Assembly: GCA_944389145.1 (NCBI GenBank)
Contig: CALXLH010000001.1
Coordinates: 1 to 34,226 of the forward strand
Length of the DNA: 34,226 nt
Direction: 5' to 3'
Source of the DNA: an uncultured Spirochaetaceae bacterium
GTDB lineage: Bacteria; Spirochaetota; Spirochaetia; Sphaerochaetales; Sphaerochaetaceae
The notes beneath the pieces were generated by a model, which had not been told where the DNA came from, did no database searches, and saw only the letters and a list, made by a program, of their open reading frames with translations. How positions within the stretch are numbered: the stretch's first letter is position 1; every line of letters starts with the position of its first letter. A program made the translations under genes and the position numbers. Shown in pieces: positions 23,042-29,157 of the stretch.

Positions 23042-23115
23042 GCCTCCTTAGCTCAGTTGGCCAGAGCACGTGACTTGTAATCTCGGGGTCGTTGGTTCGA
23101 ATCCGACAGGGGGCT
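23042..23115 (+). tRNA. tRNA-Thr (anticodon TGT)
   Basis: A 74-base cloverleaf. Acceptor arm GCCTCCT (23042-23048) pairs with AGGGGGC (23108-23114) with one T-G wobble. D arm GCTC/GAGC (23051-23054 and 23064-23067), anticodon loop CTTGTAA with TGT at 23076-23078, T arm GTTGG/CCGAC around TTCGAAT. The anticodon stem CGTGA/TCTCG has a T-T mismatch at its middle pair (23071 and 23083). CCA is not encoded, so it must be added by a CCA transferase. Confidence 0.95.
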
Positions 23116-23133
23116 TTATTAACAAAGCGACAG

Positions 23134-23168
23134 AGCCTTGCAGATAGAAATGCAAGGCTTTATTTCTT
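23134..23168 (+). terminator. Intrinsic terminator after tRNA-Thr
   Basis: AGCCTTGCA (23134-23142) and TGCAAGGCT (23151-23159) form a perfect nine-pair stem with an eight-base loop, followed by TTATTTCTT. It closes the single-gene tRNA unit. Confidence 0.88.
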
Positions 23169-23350: not shown

Positions 23351-24634
23351 ATGATGAAGAAGGTTCTCATGGTAATGCTTGTATCGATGCTTGCGGTTAC
23401 CACTATCTTCGCCAACGGTTCATCGGAACAGGCAGGCAGCGCAGACTCGGAGAAGATGACGCTTCGCTTCTTCTTCCCTATCGGAACAGCAGGAGATCTG
23501 GCAACTATCATGACAGGGCTTTGTGACGAATACTCGGCACAGAATCCAGAAGTGGAGATAGAGGCCATCTATGCCGGAGACTATGTACAGACGTTCCAGA
23601 GGACGCTTACGAGCAGCAGAGCGGGCAATCCGCCAGATGTCGCGGTTCTGACGAACGCTGACGTATGGACAGCCGTTGATGAAGGCATCGCGCTTCCGCT
23701 CCAGTCCTTCATCGATGCAGAAGGGCCGGACTTCCTCGATAGGTTCTTCCCTGCGATGCTCGATGACTGCAAGGTAGCAGGCGAATATGTTGCCATACCG
23801 TTCCAGAAGTCCACACATGTCCTTTATTACAACAAGGATATGTTCAGGGCAGCTGGACTTGATCCGGAAAAAGGTCCTGAGACCTGGGATGAGCTCGTTG
23901 AATACTGCAAGCTTCTGACCGTTCCAGGAGAGGTATATGGAGTCGAGATTCCTATTGACTTCTACTACTTGGCCGTATTCATCCTGCAGAACGGAGGAAC
24001 AATCAACAACCTTGAAGGTACAGAGACTTATCTTGATTCTCCAGAGGCTATAGAAACGGTAAGGTTCCTGAGATCGCTGGTCGAAGCAGGCTACGCTCCG
24101 GCAAAAAGGCTCTACGGAGATTCATCCAGTGATTTCGTGGCAGGAAAAGCCGCAATGATGTACAACTCGTCAGGAAGCCTGGCATTCGTGCGTGATAGCT
24201 GCGCCTTTGACTGGGGAGTCTGCTATCTCCCAGCAGGAAAGGAGCGTGTCGCTCCTACAGGTGGCGGACAGTTCGTCATCTGCCAGGGTACTTCTCCTGA
24301 AAGGCAGCAGGCAGCATGGGAATTCATCAAGTGGATGACAGAGCCAGAGCAGGCTGCAGAGTGGAGCATAGGATCAGGATTCATCGCAGTAAATCCTGGA
24401 GCCTTTGATCTTCCTGTGATGATCGAGTACAACGAGAGCCTTCCACAGGCCGTCGTTGCCAGGAATCAGCTTGAGTACGCCATGGGTGAATATCCAAAGA
24501 CGCATGACGCAAGGCAGATAGCACAGACCATGTCAACGGCATTTGAGAGCATCATGGCAGGAATCGTCGATCCGGAGACTGCTATGAGAGAACTTCAGGC
24601 GGACTGCGATTCGATCCTGAGCAAATACCGCTAA
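23351..24634 (+). CDS. ABC transporter sugar-type (UgpB-like) substrate-binding protein
   Basis: The periplasmic receptor of a carbohydrate-class (CUT1) ABC importer, 427 residues. Residues 1-21 form the signal peptide (MMKKVLMVMLVSMLAVTTIFA), followed by NGSSEQ as in many spirochaete receptors. The family 1 binding-protein fold is shown by MTLRFFFPIG, the GNPPDVAVLTNADVW segment, AIPFQKSTHVLYYNKDMFRAAGLDP, PETWDELVEYCKLLT, FVAGKAAMMYNSSGSL and AWEFIKWMTEPEQAAEW. UgpB (glycerol 3-phosphate) proteins are the nearest group I recognise, but ligand residues cannot be assigned. AAGGAG at 23339-23344 supports ATG 23351. A hairpin after the gene would make more of this protein than of the permeases. 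Confidence 0.92.
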   Translation: MMKKVLMVMLVSMLAVTTIFANGSSEQAGSADSEKMTLRFFFPIGTAGDLATIMTGLCDEYSAQNPEVEIEAIYAGDYVQTFQRTLTSSRAGNPPDVAVLTNADVWTAVDEGIALPLQSFIDAEGPDFLDRFFPAMLDDCKVAGEYVAIPFQKSTHVLYYNKDMFRAAGLDPEKGPETWDELVEYCKLLTVPGEVYGVEIPIDFYYLAVFILQNGGTINNLEGTETYLDSPEAIETVRFLRSLVEAGYAPAKRLYGDSSSDFVAGKAAMMYNSSGSLAFVRDSCAFDWGVCYLPAGKERVAPTGGGQFVICQGTSPERQQAAWEFIKWMTEPEQAAEWSIGSGFIAVNPGAFDLPVMIEYNESLPQAVVARNQLEYAMGEYPKTHDARQIAQTMSTAFESIMAGIVDPETAMRELQADCDSILSKYR

Positions 24635-24644
24635 GCTTATCTTC

Positions 24645-24675
24645 GGCTACCATCCGCTATAGGGTGGTAGCCTTT
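24645..24675 (+). terminator. Hairpin between binding protein and permease genes
   Basis: GGCTACCATCC (24645-24655) pairs with GGGTGGTAGCC (24662-24672) over 11 positions including one wobble, with a six-base loop, and TTT follows. It starts ten bases after the binding-protein stop. Such leaky terminators or RNA-stabilising hairpins commonly raise receptor output over permease in ABC operons. Confidence 0.7.
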
Positions 24676-24694
24676 CCATACGGAGACAATTCAG

Positions 24695-25576
24695 TTGAAT
24701 CGACGAAGAATTAAGAAATACGCCACAGCGTATATTTTGCTAGCACCTAGCCTGATTTTCCTGTGTATATTCACGTTCTATCCGATAGCATATTCCCTCT
24801 GGACAAGCATGTTCACGAGGATCTCCGGGCAGTCATCATTCGCAGGCCTGGAAAACTATATCTCCATGTTCAGGAGCCGTGAATTCATCGAAGTACTGAA
24901 GAATAACCTGATTTACGCTGTGTTCAGCACCATACCTGCCGTGATATTCGGCCTGATACTGGCAATAGCGCTCAACACCAGGATCAGAGGGCGTTCATTC
25001 TATAGATTCGCGGTATTCTACCCCACTATCCTACCGATTGCCACAGCTTCGATGATATGGGTGTTCCTGCTATCTCAATCAATAGGACTGGTAAACCATA
25101 TCCTTGATTTGCTTGGTATCACATCAGGTATTGACTGGGTGAATACATCGCCTTACGCGATGATATCTATCATCATCGTCTATATATGGAAATACTCAGG
25201 CTATTATATGCTGCTTTTCCTTTCGGGGTTGCAATCGATAGACAAGAGCCTGTATGAGGAGGCATATCTTGAAGGAGCGTCTACGCTTTCAAGGATACGC
25301 AGGATCACGCTGCCGCTTCTCTCGCCGACGACATTCTTCGTGGTACTTCTGGCGATAGTGAATTCCTTTCAGGCTGTGGATCAGATATACGTAATGACAA
25401 AGGGAGGTCCTCACAACTCAACGAATGTCCTCCTTTATTACATATATGAATACGGATTCGTTTACTGGGATACAGGCAAGGCAAGCAGCGCATCTACCAT
25501 CTTGTTCCTGATACTTCTGATCACGACATTCTTCTATTATTTCGGCCTGCAGAAATCGGTCAACTATGAGAGGTAG
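24695..25576 (+). CDS. ABC sugar transporter permease, UgpA/MalF-like
   Basis: The first of two inner-membrane permease subunits of the importer, 293 residues with six membrane segments. Seen: the N-terminal YILLAPSLIFLCIFTFYPIAYSLW, FAGLENYISMF typical of UgpA-like subunits, and the EAA loop EEAYLEGASTLSRIRRITLPLL near 188-209, which contacts the ATPase. The start appears to be TTG 24695 with GGAG at 24682-24685, a rather long nine-base gap; no ATG is available before residue 34, which would remove the first membrane segment. It lies 60 bases after the binding-protein gene, with the hairpin between. Confidence 0.92.
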   Translation: MNRRRIKKYATAYILLAPSLIFLCIFTFYPIAYSLWTSMFTRISGQSSFAGLENYISMFRSREFIEVLKNNLIYAVFSTIPAVIFGLILAIALNTRIRGRSFYRFAVFYPTILPIATASMIWVFLLSQSIGLVNHILDLLGITSGIDWVNTSPYAMISIIIVYIWKYSGYYMLLFLSGLQSIDKSLYEEAYLEGASTLSRIRRITLPLLSPTTFFVVLLAIVNSFQAVDQIYVMTKGGPHNSTNVLLYYIYEYGFVYWDTGKASSASTILFLILLITTFFYYFGLQKSVNYER

Positions 25577-25579
25577 GAA

Positions 25580-26416
25580 ATGATAAGACAGAAAATGACA
25601 TTTGGCCTCATCGTGAAATATGCCATCCTGATCATAACGTCATTGATAGTATTATTCCCGCTTTTGTGGATGGTATCTGTCTCCTTCAAGACAAAGCTCG
25701 AGCTATTCTCGGCCCCATACAGCCTGCTTCCAAGCCAGATCAGCCTCGATAACTACATAACAGCATGGGGTTATGCTCCTTTCGGCAGCTACTATATAAA
25801 CACGATCGTTATCACGTTCGGTCTTCTATTCATTCAGATGATAACGGTAACGATGGCTGCATTTGCATTTGCCAGGATGGAATTTCCCGGTAAGAACCTC
25901 CTGTTCATGCTCTTTCTGACACAGCTTATGATTACGGCACAAAGCACCATCTACCCCAACTATATGACAATCAGCAGGCTGGGATTGCTCAATACCAGGA
26001 TAGGCGTGATGCTTCCGTACATCGCTTCAGCCATGGGGACATTCCTTCTAAGGCAGGCATTCATGGCCCTGCCGACAGCCCTGGAAGACGCTGGAAAGAT
26101 TGATGGATGCAATGTGGCACAGATGATCATCCATGTATTCCTGCCACAGGTACAGTCAGCAATGCTGGCATTCGCGATAATGAGCGTAACAAACCATTGG
26201 AATGAGTTTCTCTGGCCTCTTCTCGTAACAGAGGATGCAGGCAGCCGGCCTCTTACCGTCGGACTGGCGATATTCGCCCAGCAGGCTGAAGGAGGAGCAG
26301 AATGGAGTCTCCTGATGGCAGCTACGCTTATGGTTTCGCTCCCGCTGCTGCTTGCATTCCTGATTTTCCAGAAGATGTTCGTAGAGGCATTTATCTCATC
26401 AGGACTAAAGGGGTAA
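25580..26416 (+). CDS. ABC sugar transporter permease, UgpE/MalG-like
   Basis: The second permease subunit, 278 residues, six membrane segments. Seen: FPLLWMVSVSFKTKLELFS at the N-terminus, where this family has its M-x-x-S-F-K motif, LSLDNY-like SQISLDNYITAW, and the EAA loop EDAGKIDGCNVAQMIIHVFLP near 169-189. It begins three bases after the stop of the first permease gene with GAGGTAGG overlapping that stop. No ATP-binding subunit follows; the pair must use an ATPase encoded elsewhere, as with MsmK-type shared ATPases. Confidence 0.92.
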   Translation: MIRQKMTFGLIVKYAILIITSLIVLFPLLWMVSVSFKTKLELFSAPYSLLPSQISLDNYITAWGYAPFGSYYINTIVITFGLLFIQMITVTMAAFAFARMEFPGKNLLFMLFLTQLMITAQSTIYPNYMTISRLGLLNTRIGVMLPYIASAMGTFLLRQAFMALPTALEDAGKIDGCNVAQMIIHVFLPQVQSAMLAFAIMSVTNHWNEFLWPLLVTEDAGSRPLTVGLAIFAQQAEGGAEWSLLMAATLMVSLPLLLAFLIFQKMFVEAFISSGLKG

Positions 26417-26420
26417 GGAC

Positions 26421-27224
26421 ATGAAGCTCCGGATCGCATTGATATCAGACATACATCACAATAAGAAGACGATCGAATACAGGCCCGGAAATGAAGCTAT
26501 GAAGCTGATTCCCACATTTATAGAAGAAGCACGGATGCAGAAGGCAGATGTCATCGTAGAGCTTGGAGATCGCATCGGAAATGCAAGCCATGATGAAGAT
26601 ATGGTGCACCTGCAAGACGTCGCATCCGCTTTCAGGAAAGCTGACATGCCCGTACTTCATGCACTTGGCAATCATGACCTGCACTTCCTCTCCGAGGCAG
26701 AGAATATCGATATCCTAGGAATGGAATCTTCTTATTATGCTATATCCGCAAATGGCTACAGGCTGATTATCCTGAATACTGCAGAAGCGACAGGCAGTAA
26801 TTCGATAATGCCGAGCGATACGCAGATCGAATGGCTATCAGATGAGATAGAGGCCGCTACGGAAAAAGTAATAGTAATCAGCCATCATCCATTGACCAAG
26901 CAGGATCAGGAAGGCAATCCATTCTTCGTGGACAACCCAGAAGGATACAAGGTAACGGATGAATCTAGGCTGCAGGATTTAATGCTTGGCAATCCGAAGG
27001 TCATCGCATCAATCAATGGCCATGTGCATTGGAGCTATTGTACGGAAAATGATGGAATACCTTTCATATCAGTCCCATCATTGATTGAAAGCTATCCAGA
27101 GACGATCAATGCCCCAGGGAGCTATATGATAGCAGAGATCTGCGATGAATACATTGACGTAAGCCTAGGCACCTTGGTGCCCAAAAGGACAGTAGGAAGG
27201 ATCGTACTGCCTGTATTATCATAA
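26421..27224 (+). CDS. Calcineurin-like metallophosphodiesterase
   Basis: A two-metal phosphoesterase of the class III cyclic nucleotide phosphodiesterase type (CpdA/GpdQ group), 267 residues, without signal peptide. All metal and catalytic motifs are present: Asp10 and His12 (SDIHH), Asp50 (ELGD), Asn84 and His85 (GNHD), His155 (ISHHPL), and His201 and His203 (NGHVHW). It starts four bases after the permease gene, with AAGGA before ATG. Relatives cleave cAMP, glycerophosphodiesters or other phosphodiesters. Being inside a UgpABE-like import operon favours an imported phosphodiester such as a glycerophosphodiester, doing cytoplasmically what UgpQ does in E. coli; this is inferred. Confidence 0.88.
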   Translation: MKLRIALISDIHHNKKTIEYRPGNEAMKLIPTFIEEARMQKADVIVELGDRIGNASHDEDMVHLQDVASAFRKADMPVLHALGNHDLHFLSEAENIDILGMESSYYAISANGYRLIILNTAEATGSNSIMPSDTQIEWLSDEIEAATEKVIVISHHPLTKQDQEGNPFFVDNPEGYKVTDESRLQDLMLGNPKVIASINGHVHWSYCTENDGIPFISVPSLIESYPETINAPGSYMIAEICDEYIDVSLGTLVPKRTVGRIVLPVLS

Positions 27225-27255
27225 GATAACCTGATGGTAATGATGGAGATGATAT

Positions 27256-28143
27256 ATGATTATCACGATCTGCCTGAGCCCGGCGTTCCAGAGGACGATG
27301 GAATTCAGCAAGCTGACGATCAGCAAGGTAAACAGAAGCATAGCAGCACACGAAGGCGCTGGGGGAAAAGGAATCAATGCGGCTAGGGCTGCAGCCAGGG
27401 AATATGATGAGGTGATGGCGCTCACGATCCTGGGAGGACCACGCATACAGCAGTTCATCGGATACTGCGAGGCAGATGGATTCAGGATCAGATACGCAAA
27501 GTCCCCTTCTCACACCAGGACATGCTGTACCCTGCTTGACCTTAACGAGATGACATGCACAGAGCTTGTAGAGGAAAGTCCGGAAGTGACGATGGAGACG
27601 CTTGATGAATTCTCATCCCTCTTCTCTGATGCCATCGGAAATGACGGATCGGATCTGCTGCTCTTCTCAGGTTCCATCCCCAAAGGCGTTCCTGCCAGAT
27701 TCATCCCATCGCTCGTTGAAGAAGGGACTAGGAATGGCTCGACGATCATGCTTGATATGACAGGACAGCTGTTGCTTGATTCCATGAAGGCAGGAGCAGG
27801 ATTCATCAAGATAAACGAGCAGGAGTTCGTATCGACGTTCCTGCCTGCGGATACCGCCGCCGGTTTCGATATCATAAAAGCAAAGGAAAGCTCCCGAAGG
27901 ATATTCGAGGAGACAGGATATAAGGCAATCATAACGAGAGGGGCAGAGGATACATGGGCATTCGATGGCTATGAAATGCTTTCGATTCCGAATAGGAAGA
28001 TAAAAGGACTGAACACGACCGGGTGCGGAGACACGTTCGCAGGTGCATTCCTAGGGGCATTGGCCAACGGGACTTCGTATATCGATTCATTGGATAACGC
28101 TCAGGTAGCTGCAATCAGGAAAGCGACAGAGGATATCCACTAG
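27256..28143 (+). CDS. PfkB family sugar or sugar-phosphate kinase (1-phosphofructokinase-like)
   Basis: A ribokinase-superfamily kinase, 295 residues, nearest to the FruK/LacC hexose-phosphate kinase group. Seen: the N-terminal MIITICLSPAFQRTMEF (FruK-type MIxTxTLNPAxDxT), GAGGKGINAARA at 34-45, FSGSIPKGVP at 137-146, and the C-terminal signature NTTGCGDTFAGAF with catalytic Asp259. The usual KPN at the phosphate-acceptor region is IKIN (184-187) and the TLG/SLG-A motif is TRGAED, so the substrate may differ from fructose 1-phosphate. GGAG at 27245-27248 is seven bases from ATG 27256. It closes the ABC/phosphodiesterase operon, suggesting it phosphorylates a sugar released from the imported compound. 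Confidence 0.87.
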   Translation: MIITICLSPAFQRTMEFSKLTISKVNRSIAAHEGAGGKGINAARAAAREYDEVMALTILGGPRIQQFIGYCEADGFRIRYAKSPSHTRTCCTLLDLNEMTCTELVEESPEVTMETLDEFSSLFSDAIGNDGSDLLLFSGSIPKGVPARFIPSLVEEGTRNGSTIMLDMTGQLLLDSMKAGAGFIKINEQEFVSTFLPADTAAGFDIIKAKESSRRIFEETGYKAIITRGAEDTWAFDGYEMLSIPNRKIKGLNTTGCGDTFAGAFLGALANGTSYIDSLDNAQVAAIRKATEDIH

Positions 28144-28188: not shown

Positions 28189-29157
28189 ATGAGGCTTTTC
28201 GTTACAGGAGGAGCAGGTTTCATCGGATCTGCGTTCGTGCGCCGCATGATGGAACGTGATGATGTCGAGGCATTGATGGTATTCGATGCGCTGACCTATG
28301 CCGCAGATATGGCGAGGCTTGAGAGCGTACGGGACGATAAGCGCTTCACGTTCTTCAAAGGTGATATAAGAAGCAGAAGAGATGTCGGCAACGCCCTATC
28401 ATCACTGCATCCTGATATCATCGTGAACTTCGCAGCGGAAAGCCACGTCGACAGATCGATAGCCTCCCCTTCCATCTTCATCGAGACGAACGTGCTGGGA
28501 ACGGGAGTGCTCATGGACGCCGCGCTTGAGGCAGGCGTAAGGCGCTTCCATCAGGTATCGACGGATGAGGTATACGGTGACCTTCCGATCGATAGCGATG
28601 AACGGTTCAGCGAAGGATCTCCCCTGCAGCCAAGCTCCCCGTATAGCGCATCAAAGGCATCGGCAGACCTGCTCGTGCTCTCATATGTGAGGACCTATGG
28701 CCTCGACGCGACGATCTCAAGATGCACTAACAACTATGGGCCATGGCAGCATGAGGAAAAGCTGATACCTCTGACGGTATCGAGGGCATTGAAAGGGGAA
28801 TGCATACCGGTCTATGGCGATGGGAGCAACGTGCGGGAATGGATACATGCGGATGATCACTCGGCAGCGCTTGAGGCAATCATAAGGAGAGGACGGAAAG
28901 GAGAGATCTACAACATAGGCAGCGGGATGGAGATATCGAATATCGCGCTAATACGCATGATCCTCCGCATGCTAGGCAGGAGCGAGGAGCTGATCAGCTT
29001 CGTTCCTGACAGGCCAGGCCATGACAGGCGCTATGCCCTTGATTCAGGAAAGCTGCAGCAGGAACTCGGGATATCGTTCAGTGGATGTGATTTCGATAAG
29101 AGGCTCCGTGAGGCAATCAGCAGCTGCTCTTGCAAAACATCCCCTACTTCGCTCTAA
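28189..29157 (+). CDS. rmlB: dTDP-glucose 4,6-dehydratase, RmlB family
   Basis: Converts dTDP-glucose to dTDP-4-keto-6-deoxyglucose, the second step to dTDP-rhamnose and other deoxysugars of the cell surface. It has 322 residues. Seen: VTGGAGFIGS at 5-14 for NAD binding, VNFAAESHVDRSI at 79-91, STDEVYGD with the catalytic Thr125-Asp126-Glu127, Tyr152 and Lys156 in YSASK, RCTNNYGPWQ, and PGHDRRYALD near the C-terminus, all of which are RmlB hallmarks. The other rml genes are absent here. No ribosome binding site is visible before ATG 28189; see the extended -10 entry. A related 4,6-dehydratase acting on UDP-glucose cannot be fully excluded, but the PGHDRRYA and DEVYGD motifs favour RmlB. Confidence 0.92.
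   Translation: MRLFVTGGAGFIGSAFVRRMMERDDVEALMVFDALTYAADMARLESVRDDKRFTFFKGDIRSRRDVGNALSSLHPDIIVNFAAESHVDRSIASPSIFIETNVLGTGVLMDAALEAGVRRFHQVSTDEVYGDLPIDSDERFSEGSPLQPSSPYSASKASADLLVLSYVRTYGLDATISRCTNNYGPWQHEEKLIPLTVSRALKGECIPVYGDGSNVREWIHADDHSAALEAIIRRGRKGEIYNIGSGMEISNIALIRMILRMLGRSEELISFVPDRPGHDRRYALDSGKLQQELGISFSGCDFDKRLREAISSCSCKTSPTSL

Follow-up and report, generated by a model that had tools for sequence, protein, structure and literature searches.

Ugp-like importers with exchangeable metallohydrolases in spirochaetes: a candidate route for the uptake and cleavage of phosphodiesters

What does an importer take up when its genes are followed by those of a phosphoesterase and a sugar kinase, and what happens to the ligand inside the cell? 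This question is raised by an operon at positions 23351-28143 of the window, the whole stretch of 34,226 nucleotides that was analysed, which is contig C1 of the genome of an uncultured Spirochaetaceae bacterium (2.13 Mb, 42 contigs). A preliminary description of this DNA proposed that a glycerophosphodiester or another sugar phosphodiester is imported, cleaved in the cytoplasm and its sugar phosphorylated. All five open reading frames of that description are present at the coordinates given below, in the same order on the + strand, and their Pfam families in gene order are SBP_bac_8/SBP_bac_1, two BPD_transp_1, Metallophos and PfkB. We consider it rather likely that the operon encodes an ATP-binding cassette (ABC) importer of the CUT1 type whose ligand is a small organic molecule with a phosphate group, most likely a phosphodiester, and that uptake is coupled to intracellular hydrolysis. 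If this is true, spirochaetes have a means of taking up and cleaving organic phosphodiesters that current annotation would list only as a sugar importer and unrelated hydrolases. That related spirochaetes combine this kind of importer with quite different hydrolases suggests a real phosphorus or carbon scavenging route not yet characterised. The exchange of hydrolases behind this importer across spirochaetes is a more notable result than the operon of the window itself.

The operon begins with a UgpB-like periplasmic substrate-binding protein of the CUT1 family (23351-24634; Pfam SBP_bac_8, 1.3e-43), which has an N-terminal signal peptide by eye. It is followed by two inner-membrane permeases with BPD_transp_1 domains, one UgpA-like (24695-25576) and one UgpE-like (25580-26416). 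The best NCBIfam model of the binding protein is UgpB (141 bits, cut-off 411), and the permeases match UgpA (145 bits, cut-off 335) and UgpE (148 bits, cut-off 297), all below cut-off. The best relative of the binding protein in the PDB is E. coli UgpB (4AQ4). Judged by these matches, the importer is most similar to UgpB/UgpA/UgpE. The fourth gene encodes a two-metal calcineurin-type phosphoesterase (26421-27224; Metallophos, 9.9e-13), predicted to be cytoplasmic and a probable phosphodiesterase. Five of 36 genomes of the genus hold the binding protein, the same five hold the phosphoesterase, and a class-wide search revealed a sixth genome with both (G326). The order binding protein-UgpA-UgpE-phosphoesterase is kept in all six loci, and the surroundings otherwise differ. 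The preliminary description had tied the importer to the phosphoesterase from the window alone, and this co-inheritance upholds it; that the Ugp-like importer and the predicted cytoplasmic phosphoesterase would form one functional unit is well supported. A scan of the genome-contig collection with the phosphoesterase as query gave no match. In two of the six loci a PHP-like protein is encoded between UgpE and the phosphoesterase. It matched the CehA/McbA model with 57 bits (cut-off 80) and has metal motifs by eye, and neither a Pfam PHP match nor a PDB relative was found for it. Its structure model was poor, with a predicted local distance difference test score (pLDDT) of 39, and thus its fold rests on the sub-threshold CehA/McbA match and the metal motifs. 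A two-component system lies upstream in three of the six loci. A HisKA_3-type histidine kinase and a LuxR-type regulator adjoin the operon at L113 3665-5582, L054 3336-5316, L056 14379-16348 and L186 334-2269, and not in the window. A homologue of the phosphoesterase (28-29% identity) is also encoded in three other genomes of the family, where it is clustered with a CUT1 importer, a metallo-beta-lactamase (MBL) protein, an alkaline-phosphatase-superfamily protein and a glycerophosphodiester phosphodiesterase (GDPD). These clusters (L116 4565-11961, L117 8626-16022 and L118 9808-17204) hold several phosphodiesterase-type enzymes behind one importer.

A class-wide profile search for the binding protein found members in 30 of 395 genomes, and 27 of their neighbourhoods were readable. 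A metallohydrolase gene lies beside the UgpE-like gene in 20 of the 27. These partners are the calcineurin type of the window (six), another calcineurin type (one), an MBL-fold protein encoded behind UgpE (ten) and a convergent MBL gene (three); at one of the ten MBL loci, a HAD-like gene lies between UgpE and the MBL gene. The MBL partners resemble RNase Z, PhnP and cyclic-nucleotide phosphodiesterases, with every model match under its cut-off. In two neighbourhoods, GlpP, the glycerol-3-phosphate antiterminator, is in place of the metallohydrolase. On the binding-protein tree the members with the partner type of the window form one clade, and the partner types need 9 changes, compared with 19 when labels were shuffled. 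The reconstructed tree requires several separate changes of partner. No described pairing of a Ugp system with a metallophosphoesterase or an MBL protein was found in the open-access literature.

The pocket of the binding protein was compared with that of UgpB. A structure of UgpB published in 2025 revealed that the phosphate is held by two Tyr and two Ser and the glycerol hydroxyls by Gly, Glu and Arg; those Tyr and Ser are kept in relatives that bind glycerophosphocholine or uridylyl-3'-5'-phosphoguanosine (U3G) (PMC12718374). We carried the contacts from this structure, which is of Phaeobacter UgpB, to E. coli numbering by motif pattern (PMC12718374). Y78, S154, S273 and G305 of the window protein correspond to E. 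coli Tyr65, Ser144, Ser270 and Gly307, and all are kept. Two contacts to the glycerol hydroxyls are lost at the aligned positions (Glu89 to Asn and Arg397 to Ala); Asp104 and Arg388 lie near these sites and may have taken over a shifted role. Tyr65, Ser144 and Gly307 are invariant in all 30 clade members and position 270 is Ser or Thr in all 30, whereas Glu89 is kept in none and Arg397 in six. M. tuberculosis UgpB, which binds glycerophosphocholine, and the U3G-binding protein of Thermus thermophilus are also UgpB relatives that bind phosphodiesters; they share the two Ser and one of the two Tyr with the window protein, in which the position of the second Tyr is occupied by Phe. Of 19 other solute-binding proteins of the genome, only that at G000:C12:5211 has Ser144, Ser270 and Tyr346, and it lacks Tyr65. 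Behind the gene of this protein with a partial UgpB phosphate site (G000:C12:5211-6146, L175) lies a TIM-barrel isomerase-like gene, as at two other spirochaete loci (L082 and L085). By these alignments, most of the phosphate-binding side of the pocket is conserved and its alcohol side has been remodelled, and the ligand probably has a tail other than that of plain glycerol 3-phosphate, the ligand of E. coli UgpB. The window genome and G326, its sister on the binding-protein tree (support 100/99), share Asn in place of Ser at position 89 and Tyr in place of Trp at position 195. Taken as one event, these changes would fit a shift of ligand, as a single contrast.

A hydrolase accompanies one of five readable members that keep Arg397, compared with 19 of 22 others (Fisher p 0.009, relatedness ignored). 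Taking it together with the changes of partner, we read this contrast as a sign that enzymes for cutting a phosphodiester were recruited repeatedly behind an importer for a ligand larger than glycerol 3-phosphate. The repeated pairing of importer and metallohydrolase is the main evidence for a phosphodiester that is cut after uptake, and the ligand is probably of this class. Because the hydrolase is repeatedly replaced by other folds behind the same importer, the ligand class is predictable and testable. A glycerophosphodiester, as originally suggested, is one option only: the binding protein retains most phosphate contacts of UgpB but not its glycerol contacts, and two ordinary GDPD genes are present elsewhere in the genome, neither adjoining an importer of this type. 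The known activities of calcineurin, MBL and PHP-like folds overlap on cyclic phosphodiesters. A more tentative idea, which we hold possible and no more, is that one UgpBAE-like clade, with its phosphate pocket kept and its glycerol pocket remodelled, is paired repeatedly with unrelated metal-dependent phosphodiesterases (calcineurin, MBL and in places PHP-like). This would be a modular system across spirochaetes for scavenging a phosphodiester so far unrecognised as a nutrient, perhaps a cyclic one (glycerol cyclic phosphate or inositol cyclic phosphate, for example).

The phosphoesterase was described beforehand as a complete two-metal enzyme, and its motifs agree. The class III motifs DxH, GD, GNHD, H and GHxH are complete, and the metal ligands D10, H12, D50, N84, H85, H155/H156, H201 and H203 are present and invariant in five orthologues. 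No signal peptide was seen by eye on the phosphoesterase, and thus it should be cytoplasmic, as the proposal of cleavage in the cytoplasm had assumed for this predicted activity. The AlphaFold2 model of the enzyme has a mean pLDDT of 83. VIA-align of this model, with Z differences under 1 treated as ties, gave 2nxf (Z 27.7), GpdQ (2zo9, 25.0), Lmo2642 (24.9) and Rv0805 (24.0) as closest folds. The root-mean-square deviation is 2.3 Å over 212 residues for Rv0805 and 2.5 Å over 228 for GpdQ. The SpdA (2',3'-cyclic nucleotide) model matched weakly, with 36 bits. GpdQ of Enterobacter aerogenes is a glycerophosphodiesterase, and its natural substrate is given as glycerophosphoethanolamine (PMC4926365). 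Because GpdQ is of the calcineurin type, a calcineurin enzyme in the role of UgpQ has chemical precedent. The preliminary description set the enzyme against E. coli UgpQ, correctly in that UgpQ, a TIM-barrel GDPD, is unrelated in fold, but it overlooked GpdQ. GpdQ, a diesterase, has the two-metal calcineurin fold in common with the window enzyme for most of its length; however, identity is 18% over the aligned region, and in the literature covered GpdQ does not appear as part of a Ugp-like operon. We also considered that the phosphoesterase fills the gap of an absent GDPD, and rejected this because the genome has two GDPD genes.

In the mechanism that we propose, the periplasmic binding protein would grip the ligand by its phosphate group, as the kept UgpB contacts suggest. 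The two permeases would carry it inward, presumably driven by a lone UgpC/MalK-type ATPase encoded at G000:C24. The cytoplasmic two-metal phosphoesterase would then cleave the diester to a phosphomonoester and an alcohol, as its fold and metal motifs predict. In this species and its sister only, the PfkB kinase might phosphorylate one of the products, which may be the phosphate of a sugar or polyol, so that it could enter glycolysis; this last step is speculative. The closest known system is E. coli UgpBAEC with UgpQ, which takes up glycerol 3-phosphate and glycerophosphodiesters. It has the same CUT1 layout and provides the best relative of all three transport proteins, it combines an importer with a cytoplasmic phosphodiesterase (predicted in the window), and most of the phosphate contacts of its UgpB are kept here. 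It differs in that the window proteins score far below the curated cut-offs, the operon lacks an ATPase gene and has a PfkB kinase added, and the binding protein has changed glycerol contacts and one changed phosphate Tyr.

Several observations weigh against a phosphodiester importer coupled to hydrolysis. The cut-offs of UgpB, UgpA and UgpE are missed by wide margins, as are those of FruK for the kinase, and the CpdA model gave the phosphoesterase 32 bits against a cut-off of 225, again a wide margin. Tyr346, one of the four phosphate-contacting side chains of UgpB, is replaced by Phe in all six members of the genus (Phe344 of the window protein); among the 30 clade members, Phe at this position is restricted to this genus. 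Five of the 27 neighbourhoods have neither a metallohydrolase nor GlpP, and the rows of the tree are related, so that the counts given above are not independent events. Calcineurin and MBL folds serve many reactions, phosphatase and RNase among them. Finally, the kinase does not suit glycerol 3-phosphate.

Three other explanations were weighed. The operon might serve to scavenge nucleotides or pieces of RNA (2',3'-cyclic nucleotides or dinucleotides), which the phosphoesterase or the MBL or PHP enzyme would open. This explanation, a form of phosphodiester uptake with a different ligand, is the least unlikely of the three. One PDB relative of the window binding protein is 4qrz, which is labelled as an ABC-type sugar transporter protein and is presumably the U3G-binding protein of T. 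thermophilus. That UgpB relative binds a dinucleotide, uridylyl-3'-5'-phosphoguanosine (PMC12718374). The partner enzymes match SpdA and cyclic-nucleotide phosphodiesterase models, but below cut-off. The conserved cluster lacks genes for a nucleoside kinase and for the salvage of ribose or bases, and GlpP beside two clade members points to glycerol phosphate instead. The same GlpP genes speak for a somewhat less likely explanation, in which a phosphomonoester (glycerol 3-phosphate, for example) is imported and the metallohydrolase acts as a phosphatase that releases phosphate. UgpB itself binds glycerol 3-phosphate and phosphatases occur among calcineurin enzymes. However, Glu89 and Arg397 are lost in nearly all hydrolase-carrying members, and the importers that keep Arg397 are those mostly without a hydrolase (1/5 compared with 19/22). 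Least likely is a plain-sugar importer whose expression is tuned by the phosphoesterase as a cyclic-nucleotide (cyclic AMP-type) signalling enzyme: the CpdA (32 bits) and SpdA (36 bits) matches and the fold near Rv0805 (Z 24) favour it, but the CpdA match stays far from its cut-off of 225 bits, the binding protein retains most of the UgpB phosphate contacts, which nearly all other binding proteins of the genome lack, and MBL replacement behind the same importer better fits a metabolic step.

The place of the kinase in phosphodiester use is less certain than that of the phosphoesterase. The last gene of the operon (27256-28143; PfkB, 1e-24) encodes a PfkB-family sugar (phosphate) kinase of the FruK/LacC group. 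Its best family is the 1-phosphofructokinase (1-PFK) subfamily TIGR03168 (145 bits, cut-off 216), and further 1-PFK/equivalog scores (138/292 and 98/410) are also below cut-off. The GGKG and SGSxPxG motifs of the group are present, as is GCGD, the GxGD catalytic motif. It differs from FruK/LacC in having Gln for the Asp of NPxxD, as do nearly all aligned spirochaete relatives. Altered KPN and SLG motifs had been pointed out, and they are indeed KIN and TRG; however, both recur in many spirochaete relatives, and thus the altered motifs of the kinase are not special. Members of this spirochaete-wide PfkB group with Gln in NPxxD lie near dehydrogenases and aldolases at L045, L046, L038 and L058-L061. 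A scan of the genome-contig collection with the kinase as query gave one distant kinase only, in a Spirochaetales metagenome-assembled genome. Counting the kinase as part of the set holds for the window and G326, where it follows the phosphoesterase, but four other congeners have no kinase at this place; among the other five operons only G326 has it, two of six in all. In G326 the kinase is the second gene after the phosphoesterase, and the first is MgtC-like. That MgtC/SapB-family gene (L113 9556-10245) hints at a setting of phosphate or magnesium starvation. Its absence from this place in four congeners led us to consider that it has nothing to do with the operon, a view that the G326 locus weakens. 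By its distribution among these loci, the kinase appears as a late, clade-specific accessory added to the operon.

The absence of an ATPase gene had also drawn attention. None lies within 5 kb of the importer, as described; yet this is not unusual, since 12 importers of this type in the genome (that of the window included) have two permeases and no ATPase gene within 5 kb. We therefore rejected the absence as a sign of novelty. A lone ATPase of the UgpC subfamily is encoded near G000:C24:59308-60402 (500 bits, cut-off 432). Streptococcal MsmK is a known case of an ATPase shared among importers (PMC4519317). By analogy, one lone MalK/UgpC-type ATPase probably serves many ATPase-less importers here, with the difference that only gene counts suggest sharing in this genome.

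The gaps from the binding protein through the kinase are 60, 3, 4 and 31 bp, and the terminator scan of the + strand found no terminator-like site between the second permease and the kinase. Downstream of the kinase, RmlB, NifS and ThiI are encoded on the same strand; spacing alone thus does not fix the downstream end of the operon. RmlB (dTDP-glucose 4,6-dehydratase, above cut-off) is at 28189-29157, directly behind the kinase, and does not follow the kinase in G326. Upstream and outside the operon, a tRNA-Thr gene (23042-23115, +; ARAGORN) and then a terminator-like hairpin (23132-23161, +; terminator scan) mark its upstream boundary.

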